DNA of 64,000 nucleotides from Streptomyces sp. NBS 14/10. GTDB taxonomy: Bacteria; Actinomycetota; Actinomycetes; Streptomycetales; Streptomycetaceae. The notes beneath the pieces were generated by a model. It had not been told where the DNA came from. It saw only the letters and a program-made list of their open reading frames with translations, and searched no databases. Location of the stretch: contig NZ_NCSM01000012.1 of NCBI RefSeq assembly GCF_002224125.1, positions 115,298 through 179,297 of the forward strand, in the 5' to 3' direction. Shown here piece by piece: positions 6,076 through 62,622 of the stretch. How positions within the stretch are numbered: position 1 is the stretch's first letter; every line of letters begins with the position of its first letter. The translations under genes were made by a program, and so were the position numbers.

Positions 6076-6649
6076 GCTGGATCTCCTGACCTTGGGCACC
6101 CGTGTCCAGGGACTACGGCACGAACGGGGCCTGACCCTTCAGCAGTTGGCCGAGGCGGCCGAGGTGAGCGTGAGCATGCTGTCCTCGGTCGAGCGCGGCC
6201 AGAAGGCGCCCACGGTCCTCGTCCTCGCCCGCATCGCCGACGGACTCGGCATACCGCTCGCCGACCTGGTCGCCGAGCCCGAGGACAGCCGTGTCATCGT
6301 GCGCCGGGCGGCCGACCAGGACACCGTCGAGGAGCCCGGAGGGTGGCGGCGGTCCATCCTCACCCCCGTGGTGCCCGGCGTGAACTTCGAGTGGATCCGC
6401 ACCACACTGCCGCCCGGCTGCGACGCGGGCCGGTTCCCCGCGTATGCCCCGGGCTCCCATGAGTTCGTCGTGGTGGAGTCGGGGACCCTGCGGCTGACTC
6501 TCGCGAGCAGGACGGTGGACCTCGAGGCCGGAGACTCGGTGTACTTCGCCGCCGATGTCACCCACGGCTACGCCAACCCCGCGCGCGTGCCGTGCGTTTA
6601 CCTGGTCGCCGCGCTCATCATGCGGCCCCGCGCGGCCCAGTTCCGGTGA
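6074..6649 (+). CDS. XRE-family regulator with C-terminal cupin sensor domain
   Basis: A 191-residue regulator. The HTH (residues 7-62, including LTLQQLAEAAEVSVSMLSSV) is followed by a linker and a cupin_2 sensor (about residues 110-185: SHEFVVVESGTLRLTL, then AGDSVYFAADVTHGYAN). The ATG at 6074 is chosen over upstream starts because the HTH begins right after it. XRE-cupin proteins usually repress a neighbouring catabolic or resistance gene and bind a small ligand in the cupin; here the obvious target is the divergent acetyltransferase. Confidence 0.88.
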   Translation: MLDLLTLGTRVQGLRHERGLTLQQLAEAAEVSVSMLSSVERGQKAPTVLVLARIADGLGIPLADLVAEPEDSRVIVRRAADQDTVEEPGGWRRSILTPVVPGVNFEWIRTTLPPGCDAGRFPAYAPGSHEFVVVESGTLRLTLASRTVDLEAGDSVYFAADVTHGYANPARVPCVYLVAALIMRPRAAQFR

Positions 6650-6720
6650 AAATCGGTTGCCCGTCCGGTGAGCCCCCTGCTCTACTCACCGCCGGCAGAC
6701 CCGCCGTACGAGGAGGCCCG

Positions 6721-6831
6721 ATGAGGCACACGTTCATGTCCATTCACCCCACCCCAGCCATTCGCGCGAAGGACATGACGTTTGTCGACCTCATCGACTC
6801 TGCCCGCCGCAAGGAGGACGACCTCCGGTAG
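6721..6831 (+). CDS. Small ORF (36 aa) upstream of and overlapping the ABC exporter gene
   Basis: An ATG seven bases after a strong GAGGAGG site opens a 36-codon frame (MRHTFMSIHPTPAIRAKD…, ending KEDDLR). It overlaps the start of the ABC gene by 50 bases in another frame. It has no Cys and few Ser/Thr, so it is not an evident lanthipeptide. It may be a leader ORF for translational coupling, or the displaced N-terminus of the ABC protein after a frameshift. Conservation has not been examined. Confidence 0.4.
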   Translation: MRHTFMSIHPTPAIRAKDMTFVDLIDSARRKEDDLR

Positions 6832-8548
6832 GCACGTACTCCGCTTCCTCCTGCCAGGCCGCGGCGCCGCCGTACTCCTGGCCCTGACCATCACCGCCGC
6901 CACCGCCCTGCCGCTGGCGGCACCCCAGTTCACCCGGCGGCTCGTCGACGGCGCGAACGCCGGCGACGACACCCGCACACTCACCCTCACCGCCCTGATC
7001 TACCTCGCCCTGGCCGTCGCCGGACAGGGCGCCCGCACCGTCACCGCCTGGCTGGCCGGCCAGGCGGCCTGGGACGGCACCAACCGGCTGCGCGAACACC
7101 TGGCCGAGCACACCCTCGGCCTGGACCTGGCCTTCCACGGCCGGCACACCCCCGGCGAGCTGATCGAGCGGGTGGACGGCGATGTGTCCGCCATCGCCGA
7201 CTTCGTCGTGGCGTTCCTGCTGGACGTCGTGGCCGGGGTGCTGCTGCTGTGCGGGGTGATCGCGGTGGTGTGCGCGGTCGATCCGCGCATCGGCGCGGCC
7301 CTGCTGGTCTACTGCGCGCTGATCGGCCTCGGCATGGTCCGCGCGCAGCGGCTGGCCGTACCCTCCGCCACCCGCGCCCGGGCGGCCGACGCCGCGCTCT
7401 TCGGCTTCCTGGAGGAACGGCTCGCCGGCGCCGAGGACGTGCGTGCCAATGGGGCAGGCGAGCACACCGTACGCCGCTTCCACCAGGCCAGCGCGGCGCT
7501 GTGGCGCACCGGGCTGCGCGCCAGCGCGGTCGGCAGCGCCGTCCTGGCGGCCACCAGCGTGGCGTTCGCGACCGGTACGGCGCTCATGGTGGGCCTGTCG
7601 GGCACCCTCAGCATCGGCACCGCGGTGCTGCTGTTCCAGTACACGCTGATGGTCCGCACTCCGTTCGAGCGGCTGATCGACCAGCTGCGCCACTATCAGG
7701 CCGCCCTCGCCGGAGTGGCCCGCATCCGCTCCCTGCTGGCCGAGCGCCGCACGCTGACCGTCCCGGCTGCCGCCAAGCAGTTGCCCGCGAGCGGGCCGCT
7801 GCGGCTGGAGCTGGACGGCGTCGACTTCTCGTACGGCGATGAGGAGGGTAAGGGTGGCGAAGGCGGCGAGGGTGGCGAAGGCGGCGAACTGGTGCTGCGC
7901 GGCATCGCCCTCACCCTCGCCCCCGGCGAGACCCTTGGCCTGGTCGGCCGCAGCGGCAGCGGTAAGACCACCATCGCCCGCCTGGTGGCCCGGCTGTACG
8001 ACCCGACGGCGGGCGCCGTCCGGGTCGGCGGTCTTGACCTGCGCGAGGTGGACACCGCCGCGCTCCGCGAGCGGGTCGCCGTGGTCACCCAGGACGTGCA
8101 GTTGTTCGCGGCCGACGTCCGGGACAACCTCACCCTGTTCCGCCCCGGGTACGACGACGACCGGCTGAGGGCCGTCCTGGCCGAAGTGGGGCTGCCCGCC
8201 CGGGACCCCGCCTGGGACCTCGACGCCCCGCTCGGCACGGTCTCCGCGGGCCAGGCGCAGTTGCTGGCCTTCGCCCGGGCCCTGCTCGCCGACCCCGGGC
8301 TCGTGGTGCTCGACGAGGTGTCCAGCCGGCTCGACCCGGCCACCGAGCGCCATATCGGCCACAGCACGGCCCGGCTGCTGACCGGCAGGACCGGGGTGCT
8401 CATAGCGCACCGGCTCGAATCGCTGTCCCACGTGGACCGGATCGCGGTCCTGTCCGAAGGCAGGGTCGTCGAGTACGGCCGGCGGGAGGAGCTACTGGCC
8501 GACCCCGCCAGCCGGTTCGCGCGGATGCTCGCGGGGGTGCGCCGATGA
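6782..8548 (+). CDS. ABC exporter half-transporter (TMD-NBD), subunit 1
   Basis: A 588-residue exporter with six TM segments in residues 20-300 and an ATPase domain. The P-loop GRSGSGKTT is near residue 390, the signature is degenerate (VSAGQ instead of LSGGQ, about 488), Walker B with catalytic Glu is VVLDEVSS (about 507) and the H-loop is IAHRLES. A Gly-Glu-rich insert (EGGEGGEGGE) interrupts the start of the ATPase domain. The TTG at 6782 has GAAGGA eight bases upstream and gives a natural N-terminus (MSTSSTLPAARR). It overlaps the next ABC gene by ATGA, so the two proteins probably form a heterodimer. The exported substrate is unknown. Confidence 0.85.
   Translation: MSTSSTLPAARRTTSGRHVLRFLLPGRGAAVLLALTITAATALPLAAPQFTRRLVDGANAGDDTRTLTLTALIYLALAVAGQGARTVTAWLAGQAAWDGTNRLREHLAEHTLGLDLAFHGRHTPGELIERVDGDVSAIADFVVAFLLDVVAGVLLLCGVIAVVCAVDPRIGAALLVYCALIGLGMVRAQRLAVPSATRARAADAALFGFLEERLAGAEDVRANGAGEHTVRRFHQASAALWRTGLRASAVGSAVLAATSVAFATGTALMVGLSGTLSIGTAVLLFQYTLMVRTPFERLIDQLRHYQAALAGVARIRSLLAERRTLTVPAAAKQLPASGPLRLELDGVDFSYGDEEGKGGEGGEGGEGGELVLRGIALTLAPGETLGLVGRSGSGKTTIARLVARLYDPTAGAVRVGGLDLREVDTAALRERVAVVTQDVQLFAADVRDNLTLFRPGYDDDRLRAVLAEVGLPARDPAWDLDAPLGTVSAGQAQLLAFARALLADPGLVVLDEVSSRLDPATERHIGHSTARLLTGRTGVLIAHRLESLSHVDRIAVLSEGRVVEYGRREELLADPASRFARMLAGVRR
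7849..7888 (+). repeat. Short GGE-coding microrepeat in ABC gene
   Basis: Alternating GGTGGCGAAGGCGGCGAG units encode a run of Gly-Gly-Glu at the TMD-NBD junction of the exporter. This looks like slippage-expanded coding sequence. Confidence 0.7.
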
Positions 8549-58283: not shown

Positions 58284-58781
58284 ATGCATCACCTGAAGCG
58301 TGCCGGCCTCAGCGCGGCCACCGGGCTTACCGCCCTTCTGGCCTGCGCCGCCCCGGCATCGGCCGTGGGGGACGACAACTTTGACCCGTCCCATCGAGAG
58401 ACCGTCTTCAATCTGATCACACAGCCGGTCGACCAGAGCTTCCTGGACTTCGACGGCGTCGGGCCGAGCCAGGGCGACGAGCTGATCATCAGCGGAAACG
58501 TGCTGCAGAACAGCCAACAGGTGGGCACGTTCAGCGAGGTGTGCACGATCACCCGGGTCGGGGTCCCGGACGAGAGCGACCTGCTGTGCGAGGGCACTCT
58601 CGTGCTGCCGCAGGGCCAGATCACCTTCCAGGGGCGGTTCACGATCATGGCCGGCGGCCCCTCGGACGTCACTTTGGCCATCACGGGAGGCACGGGCGTC
58701 TACCGCACCGCGCACGGCTTCATCCAGGCCGTCAACCCGGGCGCAGCCCAGACGGAGATCGTCGTCCACCTCATCCCCTGA
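58284..58781 (+). CDS. Secreted allene oxide cyclase-like barrel protein
   Basis: A 165-residue protein. The signal peptide (1-27) is followed by an eight-stranded-barrel-type sequence: GDELIISGNVLQ, SEVCTITRVG, LCEGTLVLPQGQITFQGRF and AITGGTGVYRTAHGFI. The TGGTGxYxxAxG motif is shared by dirigent and allene-oxide-cyclase-like proteins. Bacterial members have no proven reaction. ATG 58284 follows GAGGAGAT. It faces the RiPP operon but is transcribed the other way. Confidence 0.75.
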   Translation: MHHLKRAGLSAATGLTALLACAAPASAVGDDNFDPSHRETVFNLITQPVDQSFLDFDGVGPSQGDELIISGNVLQNSQQVGTFSEVCTITRVGVPDESDLLCEGTLVLPQGQITFQGRFTIMAGGPSDVTLAITGGTGVYRTAHGFIQAVNPGAAQTEIVVHLIP

Positions 58782-58801: not shown

Positions 58802-58841
58802 TGGCGGACCCGGGCGGCCAGCGCGCGGCCCGGGTCCGCCA
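58802..58841. terminator. Strong bidirectional hairpin
   Basis: TGGCGGACCCGGGC pairs perfectly with GCCCGGGTCCGCCA (14 bp, 12-base loop). It ends both the secreted-protein gene and the RiPP operon. Confidence 0.8.
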
Positions 58842-58844
58842 GTG

Positions 58845-59654
58845 TCAGATCTCGCGGGCGCGAGCCATCAACGAGCGTCCGATGAGCGAGCAGGCGACGG
58901 CCGCGATGGCGAGCAGGGTCAGCATCCAGGGCCAGGCGGCGCCGAACCCATTGAGCGCCCCGTCGCGGATGCAGCGGATCCCGTACGTCACCGGATTGGC
59001 CCAGGACAGCCAGCGCAGCACCGGGGCCATCTGCGCCGCGGGATAGAACGAGGGGCTGGCGAACAGCAGCGTGGGCGCGAGCACGTTGATGGTCACCGTG
59101 AAGCGCTGGAAATCCTTGAACAAGGTGGCGAGCAGCAGATACAGGCCGTTGAACGCCATCGACGCGACGGTGATCCCGCACAGGATCGCCACCCAGTGGC
59201 TGGGCGGCCAGCGGAAGGTGAACACCAGGAGGGACACCCCCAGCGCGGCCAGGCTCTGCGCGAGGATCAGCAGCGTACTGACGATGAGCTTTCCCGCCAC
59301 ATAGCTGCCGCGCCGCAACGGATAGGACCACAGTTCCACGTCCATCCGTCCCAGGCGCTCCTGGAAGAGGGAGGTGCCCGCGGTGGTGGCCGCCGCGAGC
59401 ATCGAGGAGAGCAGCAGGGCGGGGACCGCGAATTCCGGGTAGCTGACGAGACGGCCCTCGTACCGCACGTCCCCGATCAGACGGGACAGGGAGGTGGCGA
59501 AGAGAAGCAGGTACACGGCGCTCGGGGTGATGGCGAGCAGCAGGTTGGTGCGGTTGCGGGTGAGCAGCAGATACTCGCGGTACATCGTCGCCGCGATGTC
59601 GCCGCGCAGCAGCGTCGGCCCCGTGGCCGGTCCCGATACGAGGTCAGCCGTCAT
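58845..59654 (-). CDS. ABC-2 type exporter permease of the RiPP operon
   Basis: A 269-residue ABC-2 permease with six TM segments and an N-terminal MYREYLLLTRNRTNLLLAIT segment typical of DrrB/YadH-like permeases, and a central AAATTAGTSLFQERLGRMDV. It probably works with the ATPase upstream to export the modified peptide. The genes overlap by 11 bases. It carries no peptidase domain, so leader cleavage must happen elsewhere. Confidence 0.9.
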   Translation of the reverse strand: MTADLVSGPATGPTLLRGDIAATMYREYLLLTRNRTNLLLAITPSAVYLLLFATSLSRLIGDVRYEGRLVSYPEFAVPALLLSSMLAAATTAGTSLFQERLGRMDVELWSYPLRRGSYVAGKLIVSTLLILAQSLAALGVSLLVFTFRWPPSHWVAILCGITVASMAFNGLYLLLATLFKDFQRFTVTINVLAPTLLFASPSFYPAAQMAPVLRWLSWANPVTYGIRCIRDGALNGFGAAWPWMLTLLAIAAVACSLIGRSLMARAREI

Positions 59655-60594
59655 GTCCGGCCCCCACGAGGGTCAAAAAGGCGTCCTCCAGTGACGGTGT
59701 GCGGTACTCGACCGCCCCGATGCCGATCCCCAGCGTCTCCGCACGGGTCAGCAGCGCGGGGAGGCGGGCCCGCATGCCCTGGCCCCTGACCTCGACCTCA
59801 CCCTCGCCGGTCGTCACCCGCAGCGGTGGCTGCGCCTGGCCGAGCAGGGCCAGCAACGCGTCGGTGTCCTGTGGGCGCTCCGGGCGCACCAATGCCACCT
59901 GGCCGCCGAACCGCTCGGCGAGTTCGCGCGGGGCCGCGAACTCGACCAGCCTGCCGTGGTCGACCACCAGGACCCGCCGGCAGTTGCGCTCCACCTCCTC
60001 CACGTAATGACTGGTCCACAGCATGGTGGTGCCATGTCGGCGGCGCAGTTCGTGCAGCAGCGACCACACCTGGCGGCGGGCGCCCACGTCCAGCCCGGCG
60101 GAGGGCTCGTCGAGGAGCAGCAGCGGCGGATCGCCGAGCAGCGCCCGAATGACCTGGAGGCGCCTTCTCTCCCCGCCGGAGAGGGTGAAGGTGAGCTGGC
60201 CGGTCTTGCCGTCCAGCCCGAAGGCGGTGAGCAGATCGTCCACCTGCCGCCGGACGTCGCGCCAGCGCAGCCCCTTGTATCTGGCGGCGGTCCGCAGATT
60301 GTCCAGGGCGGGCAGCATCATGTCGAACGGGCCGCTCTGGTGGACGACGCCGATACCGCGTTTCACCGCTCCCGTGGGCCCCGCGGGGTCGGCCCCGAAC
60401 ACCTCCACGGTGCCCCGGGTGGGCACGGTGGCCCCGCAGATCATCTTGATGAGTGTGGTCTTCCCGGCCCCGTTCGGGCCCAGCAGGCCGATGACCTCGC
60501 CCGGTTCGATGGCGAACGACAGCCGGCTCACCGCGTCGTGTGCCATGCCGTCGTACCGCTTGACCAGCTCATCCGCATGGACCGCGGGCGTCAT
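59644..60594 (-). CDS. ABC exporter ATPase of the RiPP operon
   Basis: A 316-residue ATPase. P-loop GLLGPNGAGKTTLIK near residue 40, signature LSGGERRRLQVIRALLGDP near 140, Walker B LLLLDEPSAGLD, H-loop WTSHYVEEV, followed by an ~80-residue C-terminal domain as in drug or bacteriocin exporters. Its ATG overlaps the stop of the PqqD-like gene by ATGA. It would power export of, and immunity to, the peptide product. Confidence 0.92.
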   Translation of the reverse strand: MTPAVHADELVKRYDGMAHDAVSRLSFAIEPGEVIGLLGPNGAGKTTLIKMICGATVPTRGTVEVFGADPAGPTGAVKRGIGVVHQSGPFDMMLPALDNLRTAARYKGLRWRDVRRQVDDLLTAFGLDGKTGQLTFTLSGGERRRLQVIRALLGDPPLLLLDEPSAGLDVGARRQVWSLLHELRRRHGTTMLWTSHYVEEVERNCRRVLVVDHGRLVEFAAPRELAERFGGQVALVRPERPQDTDALLALLGQAQPPLRVTTGEGEVEVRGQGMRARLPALLTRAETLGIGIGAVEYRTPSLEDAFLTLVGAGHDG

Positions 60595-60968
60595 GCCGAC
60601 GGGCCCGCGGCCCCGGACGGGGCGACGTCGTCGGTCACGTCGGCCATATCGGCCATATCAGTCGCGTCAGTCGCGTCAGCCGCGGCGGCCGCGTCGGTCA
60701 GCAGAAGTCCCTGCCCCGCCAGCGTGTCCAGGAACTCGTGCACATCCCGCATGACCACGGCCGCCTGCCCGGTGTCCTCGACGGCGTACCGCCGCACCAT
60801 CTGGGACGCGATGCCGGCCGCGTCGGCGGGATTTCCCTCGGACACGAGGATCCACAGCTCGGCACCCGTGCTGTTGAGGGTCTGGAACTCGCCTGAATGG
60901 CCGTCGTATAGCCGCACTTCGCCGTCGTCGGCCATCCAGACGACGTCGGGGGCGATCCGGTAGCGCAT
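60591..60968 (-). CDS. PqqD-like RiPP recognition element protein
   Basis: A 125-residue protein. Residues 1-92 have the PqqD winged-helix fold: YRIAPDVVWMADDGEVRLYD, LNSTGAELWILVSEG and VHEFLDTLAGQGLLL. PqqD-type proteins bind the leader peptide and present it to the radical SAM enzyme. Residues 93-125 are a low-complexity tail (repeated Asp-Ala-Thr and Met-Ala-Asp), encoded by short DNA repeats. It lies 12 bases after the maturase and overlaps the ATPase gene. Confidence 0.88.
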   Translation of the reverse strand: MRYRIAPDVVWMADDGEVRLYDGHSGEFQTLNSTGAELWILVSEGNPADAAGIASQMVRRYAVEDTGQAAVVMRDVHEFLDTLAGQGLLLTDAAAAADATDATDMADMADVTDDVAPSGAAGPSA

Positions 60969-60980
60969 GGACGTATCCCT

Positions 60981-62402
60981 TCAGTCGACGAGGGGGAGGA
61001 GGCGGCGGCCCGCGGTCTTCCAGTCCTCGTACACCGGGTGGACCGTGTCGTCCCGGACCAGATGAGGCTGGAGCATCTGGTCCTGGTGCTCGGTGAGTTG
61101 GCGTCCGGACACCCCGGCGGCCCGCCACCAGTTGGAGATCATGGAGTGGCGCAGCATCCGGCACAGATGGCGGCCGTTGCGGTGCACATCGCCGCTCTCC
61201 GCCATGTGGTACGCCCGGCAGCCACCGCCGCAGGCCGCCCGGATGTAGCAGCGGCGGCAGTCCTTCAGATTCTCGCCGCTGAATACGCTGTTGCCGCGCA
61301 TATCGGCCAGCACCGGGGCCGCGAAGAGTTCGGTCAGCCGCTGCTCCCGTACATTACCGGCCTTGTGCACCGGCTCCGTGACGAGTTTGCACGGATACAC
61401 ATCGCCCAGTGAATTTATATAGATCTCATTGCCGCCCATGCCGCAGTTTCCCCTGATGGTGCAGGGCTTGCTGGCCTTGGGGCCGTCGGGGAGCAGCTTG
61501 TCGGCCATCGGATTGGTCCAGAAGAATGTCTGGATCTTCTGGAAATCCCGCCATCCGAATTCATATCCGTCGGTCGCCGCGCGGCCGAGGTCCGAGTGGT
61601 ACATGAGGCGCACCCGGCGCACCTTGAGATCGTCCACGAATTCGCAGACCTTCTCCAGGGCGTCCACGTTCTCCGGTGTCACCACATGATTGATGACGGG
61701 GACGACACCCGCCTCGTTGAGCAGCCCCAGACCCTTCCCGGTCCGGGCGAACGTGCCCTTGCCGCGGGTCCGCTCGTGTATCTCCGCGGTGCCGCCGTCC
61801 ACGCTCACGGTCACCGTGCCGAAGATCTCGGAGATCTGCCGTGCGATCTCCGCCGTGCGGATCATCGTGCCATTAGTGATCATGTTGACGGTCAGTCCGC
61901 GCTCGCGGGCGTGCGATGCCACCAGGAACAGGTCCTTGCGCAGCATCGGCTCGCCGCCCGTGAAGATCATCTGCCGTACGCCCATGTCCGCCGCCTGATC
62001 GACGAGGTCGAGCGATTCCTCGGTGGACAACTCCCCGGGCAGGCACTTCTCCGATGAGGCGTAGCAGTACGGGCAGCGCAGATTGCAGCCGTCGGTGATC
62101 GCGTAATAGACGGTCGTGAGGCTCGGCTCGGGCTGGCGCACCGCCGGGCGATGGCCGGGCAGATAGACGATCCACTTGAGCACGAGCTTGGCCAGGACGC
62201 GCTCCACCTCGGCGGCGGATCCGCCGCCGGACGACGGGGGCTCCTGGCCGCGGCTGAGCGATTTCAGCACGGCGGATTCCGGTTCGGTGAGCACACACCA
62301 GGCGGCCAGTTCGGGGTTGGCGACCAGCTGCTTCTCCGCGTTCCGGAAATAGACGAGATCTTCGGGAACGATCAGGTCGGACCACTGTTCCAGTAGCTTC
62401 AT
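60981..62402 (-). CDS. Radical SAM/SPASM peptide maturase
   Basis: A 473-residue radical SAM enzyme. The cluster motif CNLRCPYC is at residues 106-113 and FTGGEPMLR is the SAM-binding GGE. The C-terminal SPASM region has Cys in SKPCTIRGNCGMGG, DVYPCKL, LKDCRRCYIRAACGGGCRAY and HLCRML for auxiliary clusters. Residues 1-85 look like a wHTH that could also bind a leader. It should install thioether or carbon links on the small precursor. ATG 62402 follows GGGAGG. Sactipeptide or ranthipeptide chemistry is inferred from the Cys-rich precursor. Confidence 0.9.
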   Translation of the reverse strand: MKLLEQWSDLIVPEDLVYFRNAEKQLVANPELAAWCVLTEPESAVLKSLSRGQEPPSSGGGSAAEVERVLAKLVLKWIVYLPGHRPAVRQPEPSLTTVYYAITDGCNLRCPYCYASSEKCLPGELSTEESLDLVDQAADMGVRQMIFTGGEPMLRKDLFLVASHARERGLTVNMITNGTMIRTAEIARQISEIFGTVTVSVDGGTAEIHERTRGKGTFARTGKGLGLLNEAGVVPVINHVVTPENVDALEKVCEFVDDLKVRRVRLMYHSDLGRAATDGYEFGWRDFQKIQTFFWTNPMADKLLPDGPKASKPCTIRGNCGMGGNEIYINSLGDVYPCKLVTEPVHKAGNVREQRLTELFAAPVLADMRGNSVFSGENLKDCRRCYIRAACGGGCRAYHMAESGDVHRNGRHLCRMLRHSMISNWWRAAGVSGRQLTEHQDQMLQPHLVRDDTVHPVYEDWKTAGRRLLPLVD

Positions 62403-62484
62403 CCTGCACCTCCCATGAGCAGGCGGGGCGCCGGCCGCGCCGGGCCCCGCCTGCCGGCTGACGGGGACTGCCGACAGCCGTCGG

Positions 62485-62622
62485 TCAGATCTCGAGTCTC
62501 GGCTCGGACTCCGCGTTACCGGACCCGGCGCCGGCACCGCCCGAACAGTCGCAGGAGCACGGCTGGTCGATGTCGAACTCGATCGGAAGCATTTCCGGCT
62601 TCACCCAGACAGGACTTTCCAT
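62485..62622 (-). CDS. RiPP precursor peptide with CxCxC core
   Basis: A 45-residue peptide. Residues 1-20 are a leader (WVKPEMLPIEFDID), then PCSCDCSGG with Cys at 22, 24 and 26, then a Gly/Ala/Ser stretch (GAGAGSGN) and an acidic end (AESEPRLEI). Three Cys before a flexible Gly/Ser/Ala/Asn segment is the pattern of hairpin sactipeptides. ATG 62622 has AAAGGA eight bases upstream. It is 82 bases upstream of the maturase. Other actinobacterial sactipeptide-like precursors may be homologous; this cannot be verified here. Confidence 0.8.
   Translation of the reverse strand: MESPVWVKPEMLPIEFDIDQPCSCDCSGGAGAGSGNAESEPRLEI

Follow-up and report, generated by a model that had tools for sequence, protein, structure and literature searches.

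An operon of Streptomyces sp. NBS 14/10 orthologous to the sts sactipeptide cluster of Streptomyces sparsogenes

Introduction

Sactipeptide maturation in Streptomyces sparsogenes involves the radical SAM (rSAM) enzyme StsB. Precord and colleagues reportedly established in 2023, by MS, mutagenesis and chemical degradation, that this StsB forms sactionine (sulfur-to-alpha-carbon) bonds, and the enzyme is said to resemble MftC in full-length sequence. A 2025 paper (PMC12710340) describes StsC as the discrete recognition element of a sactipeptide system from Actinomycetota, and refers to Precord et al. 2023 for the sts system. In that paper, which names the product a sactipeptide, StsC retains the precursor StsA, binding through the leader, and retention is lost in three double-alanine variants of StsA: W(-15)/V(-14), K(-13)/P(-12) and K(-18)/P(-17). 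The word sparsogenes is absent from the main text of PMC12710340; the residue numbers given there nevertheless fit the S. sparsogenes proteins. StsA of the S. sparsogenes locus compared below (L001) has every one of the named residues K(-18), P(-17), W(-15), V(-14), K(-13), P(-12), E(-11) and M(-10), and Arg58, Tyr59, Glu62 and Asp63 of StsC occur at the same numbers in L001 StsC. Among the open-licence literature matches listed, PMC12710340 was the only paper found to treat the StsA/StsB family (StsB is unmentioned in the excerpts of PMC11002830), and these matches held no report of an isolated mature sts product.

The classical sactipeptide systems of Bacillus (AlbA, SkfB) likewise rely on an rSAM maturase with a SPASM-type domain, but their similarity to the operon described here is low, and the recognition element of the latter is a separate protein. 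This operon lies in a 64,000-nucleotide stretch of the Streptomyces sp. NBS 14/10 genome, hereafter the window. Our analysis shows that it is real and intact, but not new, being orthologous to a system already described and curated.

Results

Gene content and layout

What we observed is gene content, family membership and conservation. The five genes lie where the first-pass annotation had placed them, in one orientation (Table 1), and the coordinates, NCBIfam matches and Pfam matches bear out its reading of an rSAM RiPP operon that encodes a precursor, a maturase, a recognition protein and an exporter. Each of the five genes has an open reading frame free of TTA codons. The precursor, StsB and a discrete StsC recognition element are adjacent on the same strand, the arrangement expected of an sts cluster. 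Overlapping junctions had been proposed throughout; two of the four do overlap, by 4 nt (ATGA) between the PqqD-like and ATPase genes and by 11 nt between the ATPase and permease genes, whereas precursor and maturase are separated by 82 nt, and maturase and PqqD-like gene by 12 nt. Similarly, the strong terminator said to close the operon is indeed a strong hairpin, located amid two converging genes and equalled in stability by 0 of 200 shuffles, but a U-run is lacking and the terminator pattern scan gave no report there. The converging gene (58284-58781, plus strand) encodes an allene oxide cyclase-like barrel protein (PF18678, 32.7 bits), a relative of which adjoins the operon in the S. milbemycinicus locus L005 and was not found in L001.

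Table 1. Features of the operon, with positions in the window
Feature	Position	Strand	Content or evidence
Operon, five genes	58845-62622	minus	Precursor, rSAM/SPASM maturase, PqqD-like, ABC ATPase, ABC-2 permease
stsA, 45-aa precursor, WVKP recognition motif in leader, CSCDCSGGAGAGSG core	62485..62622	-	NF045558 StsA_sacti_RiPP
stsB, 473-aa radical SAM/SPASM sactipeptide maturase	60981..62402	-	NF045574; PF04055 + PF13186
stsC, 125-aa discrete PqqD-like RiPP recognition element	60591..60968	-	PF05402, 45.3 bits, cut-off 23.4
ABC exporter ATPase, DrrA-like	59644..60594	-	PF00005, 106.7 bits
ABC-2 exporter permease	58845..59654	-	PF01061, 89.3 bits
GC-rich hairpin, putative terminator without U-run	58802..58841	.	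-43.5 kcal/mol, z -3.42

The precursor and its relatives

The precursor belongs to the StsA family, scoring 86.5 bits where the NCBIfam cut-off is 42, and is therefore more than a chance ORF; it matched none of the models of the Pfam copy used. The predicted core, which the first-pass annotation could not assign to any named product, is thus that of StsA, a curated family (NF045558) with a namesake in S. sparsogenes and published binding work (PMC12710340). A protein search returned three relatives with E values no higher than 0.01; the one named 'StsA family sactipeptide RiPP [Streptomyces sparsogenes]' is 80% identical, and identity is 82% to L001 over 45 residues and 93% to L005. The annotation had named a characterised product from a precursor above 70% identity as what would refute its reading, and in substance such a precursor exists, at 80-82%, although the open-licence literature matches listed held no report of an isolated mature product. 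The two S. sparsogenes StsA records disagree in their core, which reads CSCGCS in P0003 and CSCDCS in L001:7779-7913.

In a survey of 392 genomes drawn from the genus, the StsA model gave two matches at E 0.001, the one over the cut-off being the window's own genome. This low count may be an underestimate, since the survey was of limited sensitivity: among the genomes listed, just 18 first-look candidates were scored in each (18 of 76 for the window's own genome).

A pattern scan of a species-genome collection yielded 38 loci (L001-L038); such a scan is confined to close relatives, and the window's own genome may be missing from it. In all 38 the precursor lies upstream of the maturase, conserved beside it as the first-pass annotation had required, and a PqqD-like match lies just downstream (25-35% identity in the loci with long precursors). 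Five loci (L001-L005) carry a short precursor of the StsA type and 33 (L006-L038) a long-leader CxC precursor; the profile used to search for precursors drew on five of these sequences. Read by eye, all 39 precursors, the window's included, combine WxxP with CxC, and the third cysteine (CxCxC) is present in 6/6 short-type and 0/33 long-type sequences.

The five genes occur in identical order in S. sparsogenes (L001), S. olivoreticuli (L002) and S. milbemycinicus (L005). The likeness to S. sparsogenes covers gene order and strand, the maturase (88% identity), the ATPase (84%), the permease (86%) and a Mut7-C gene common to both on the upstream side (92%); the two genes downstream of the operon in the window were not found in the roughly 5.9 kb available on that side of L001. 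The operon is accordingly an ordinary one, a close copy of the described StsA/StsB cluster of S. sparsogenes, and our analysis mostly confirms a known family, to which it adds an orthologue with a fixed core and a varying leader.

The maturase and its chemistry

StsB scores 803.8 bits against NF045574 (sacti_mat_StsB, NCBIfam; cut-off 625) and belongs to that family. The model is selective: seven proteins of the window's own genome match it, the operon's StsB alone exceeding the cut-off, and the control genomes, with matches in 14/14 at E 0.001, contain none above it. Eleven cysteines are invariant in 39/39 aligned StsB sequences, three of the CxxxCxxC site and eight further on. The maturases of the short-leader loci group in a single clade (support 1.0) in a FastTree tree for which we chose the Celeribacter sequence L036 as root. 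The best PDB match of StsB is SkfB (E 1.1e-17), and the AlbA model gives 71.6 bits (cut-off 850).

StsB might instead make thioethers to beta or gamma carbons in the manner of PapB, and the operon would then be a ranthipeptide cluster. The SPASM maturases of the ranthipeptide and sactipeptide classes are related, and StsB does match the PapB model weakly; however, these 96.9 bits fall far short of the PapB cut-off (340), and the StsB model scores far higher. The tail of the core is mostly Gly, Ala and Ser, and lacks the Cys-x3-Asp units that are a feature of freyrasin. PMC12710340 also calls the product of the system a sactipeptide, and we regard ranthipeptide chemistry as quite improbable.

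An rSAM chemistry without thioethers, such as a mycofactocin-like decarboxylation or a carbon crosslink, has in its favour that MftC ranks fourth among the models that StsB matches (128.7 bits), a score nonetheless far under the MftC cut-off of 265, with the StsB score far above its own. Mycofactocin precursors end in Val-Tyr, which the StsA core does not, and the CxC motif read by eye in all 39 precursors also argues against this possibility, which we consider exceedingly unlikely. The thioether chemistry proposed for the maturase at first pass is retained as probable. Its assignment to the sactionine type draws on the findings attributed to Precord et al. 2023 and on the naming in NCBIfam and PMC12710340.

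Conserved core, varying leader and StsC

Residues 21-40 of StsA, which include the CSCDC core, are identical in the window and L001. Eight residues differ between the two precursors, seven of them within residues 1-20, including the replacement of Lys(-18) by Ser. At the codon level, the comparison with L001 gives six synonymous and one non-synonymous changes in the core (codons 21-45), and two synonymous and seven non-synonymous changes in the leader (codons 1-20). The corresponding counts against L005 are two and zero in the core, and zero and three in the leader. These substitution counts are small, and point to conservation of the StsA core.

The leader of the window carries the WxxP motif as W6-V-K-P9, and WVKP is kept in 6/6 short-leader precursors. 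In the extended KPxWxxP motif, the window has Ser-Pro where Lys(-18)-Pro(-17) is expected; we did not take these residues as defining, because PMC12710340 calls both positions poorly conserved. StsC is 64% identical to its L001 counterpart and has a longer C-terminal tail. The Arg, Tyr, Glu and Asp highlighted in PMC12710340 are kept in the window, two positions later, so that the acidic pair of StsC is retained while its proposed partner in the leader, Lys(-18), is replaced by Ser. Given this Ser and the loss of binding in the K(-18)A/P(-17)A variant of that study, recognition may differ slightly in the window. With this natural change at Lys(-18), the recognition model in print can be tested simply.

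Proposed mechanism and leader removal

Taken together, these results make it very probable that the window operon is an orthologue of the sts cluster and works by an StsC, StsB and exporter mechanism. StsC would hold the StsA leader through its W-x-x-P stretch and present the core to StsB, which, with its CxxxCxxC cluster site and the eight conserved cysteines of its SPASM part, would crosslink the core with a loss of 2 Da per bond. The three core cysteines would form bonds with the alpha-carbons of residues in the Gly/Ala/Ser-rich stretch that comes after them, a protease encoded elsewhere would remove the leader, and the ABC-2 pair would export the peptide. The number and place of the bonds in the window's peptide are inferred, as are its leader removal, export and biological role.

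In agreement with the first-pass annotation, a Pfam scan of eight proteins found no peptidase among the five operon genes and three flanking genes. This gap could mean that the cluster, although a member of the sts family, is decayed or silent and makes nothing, and a homologue of the peptidase of two sister clusters (below) was likewise not found in the genome. That search (L003 peptidase, E up to 1) shows little, because it had no positive control. Against a silent cluster, the five reading frames are open, core changes are few and mostly synonymous, and the three relatives with the same five-gene order (L001, L002, L005) also lack a peptidase gene between StsC and the ATPase, where, as in the window, the matches abut or overlap. 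We therefore hold a silent cluster to be very unlikely. This possibility was rejected, as were the ranthipeptide and mycofactocin-like ones.

Returning to a functional sts cluster, the short-leader loci L003 and L004 suggest how the leader may be removed elsewhere in the family. Both contain an ORF that lies between stsC and the ATPase gene and ends 4 nt inside the ATPase match (L003:9711-10565, 284 aa; L004:9603-10547, 314 aa). The Peptidase_S24 model gives 27.1 bits for L003, which passes the cut-off of 23.3, and 21.8 bits for L004, which does not; both ORFs match archaeal signal peptidase I below its cut-off of 51.85 (32.7 and 24.3 bits). The L003 protein had no PDB match at E up to 0.1. 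Both ORFs have SMLP, HRV and GDN motifs, which we take to be similar to catalytic boxes found in signal peptidases of the Ser-His type. Short-leader sts clusters may thus be of two kinds, an idea that we advance tentatively and with some doubt: in L003 and L004, leader removal would fall to a dedicated serine peptidase of S24/S26-like type, its gene coupled between stsC and those for the exporter, whereas the branch of S. sparsogenes and the window, without it, would use a host protease. If true, this would name the missing leader peptidase of the sts family. The L003/L004 peptidase is a candidate enzyme for removing the leader, and the sole lead here worth testing.

Long-leader relatives

The long-leader, StsA-related CxC sactipeptides (NF045559, with the aroma-sacti domain NF045560) share with the window an StsB-family maturase (54-59% identical), an adjacent PqqD-like gene, the leader WxxP, and a CxC followed by a Gly/Ser-rich tail. 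Of their precursors, two were compared with NCBIfam, and each belongs to NF045559 and NF045560. They differ from the short type in the length of the whole precursor (roughly 85-100 residues versus 39-45), in having two core cysteines instead of three, and in the extra genes nearby, which in eight loci examined include relatives of FAD oxidoreductases (6), YcaO (5) and S9 peptidases (4). Genes for YcaO, S8 and S9 peptidases and FAD oxidoreductase are found, for instance, at L034:14504-15637, L034:3494-4357, L028:11039-12907 and L006:9740-11188. These extra enzymes suggest that the peptides of long-leader loci are more heavily modified than those of the sts type.

Locus L037 holds two long-leader CxC precursors on opposite strands (6557-6841, minus; 7426-7848, plus). 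In at least 11 of the 33 long-leader loci (L006, L010, L021-L023, L026, L029, L030, L032-L034), a second protein, encoded on the minus strand upstream of the precursor, weakly matches the leader profile and has no CxC core; it may be a stand-alone leader-like domain.
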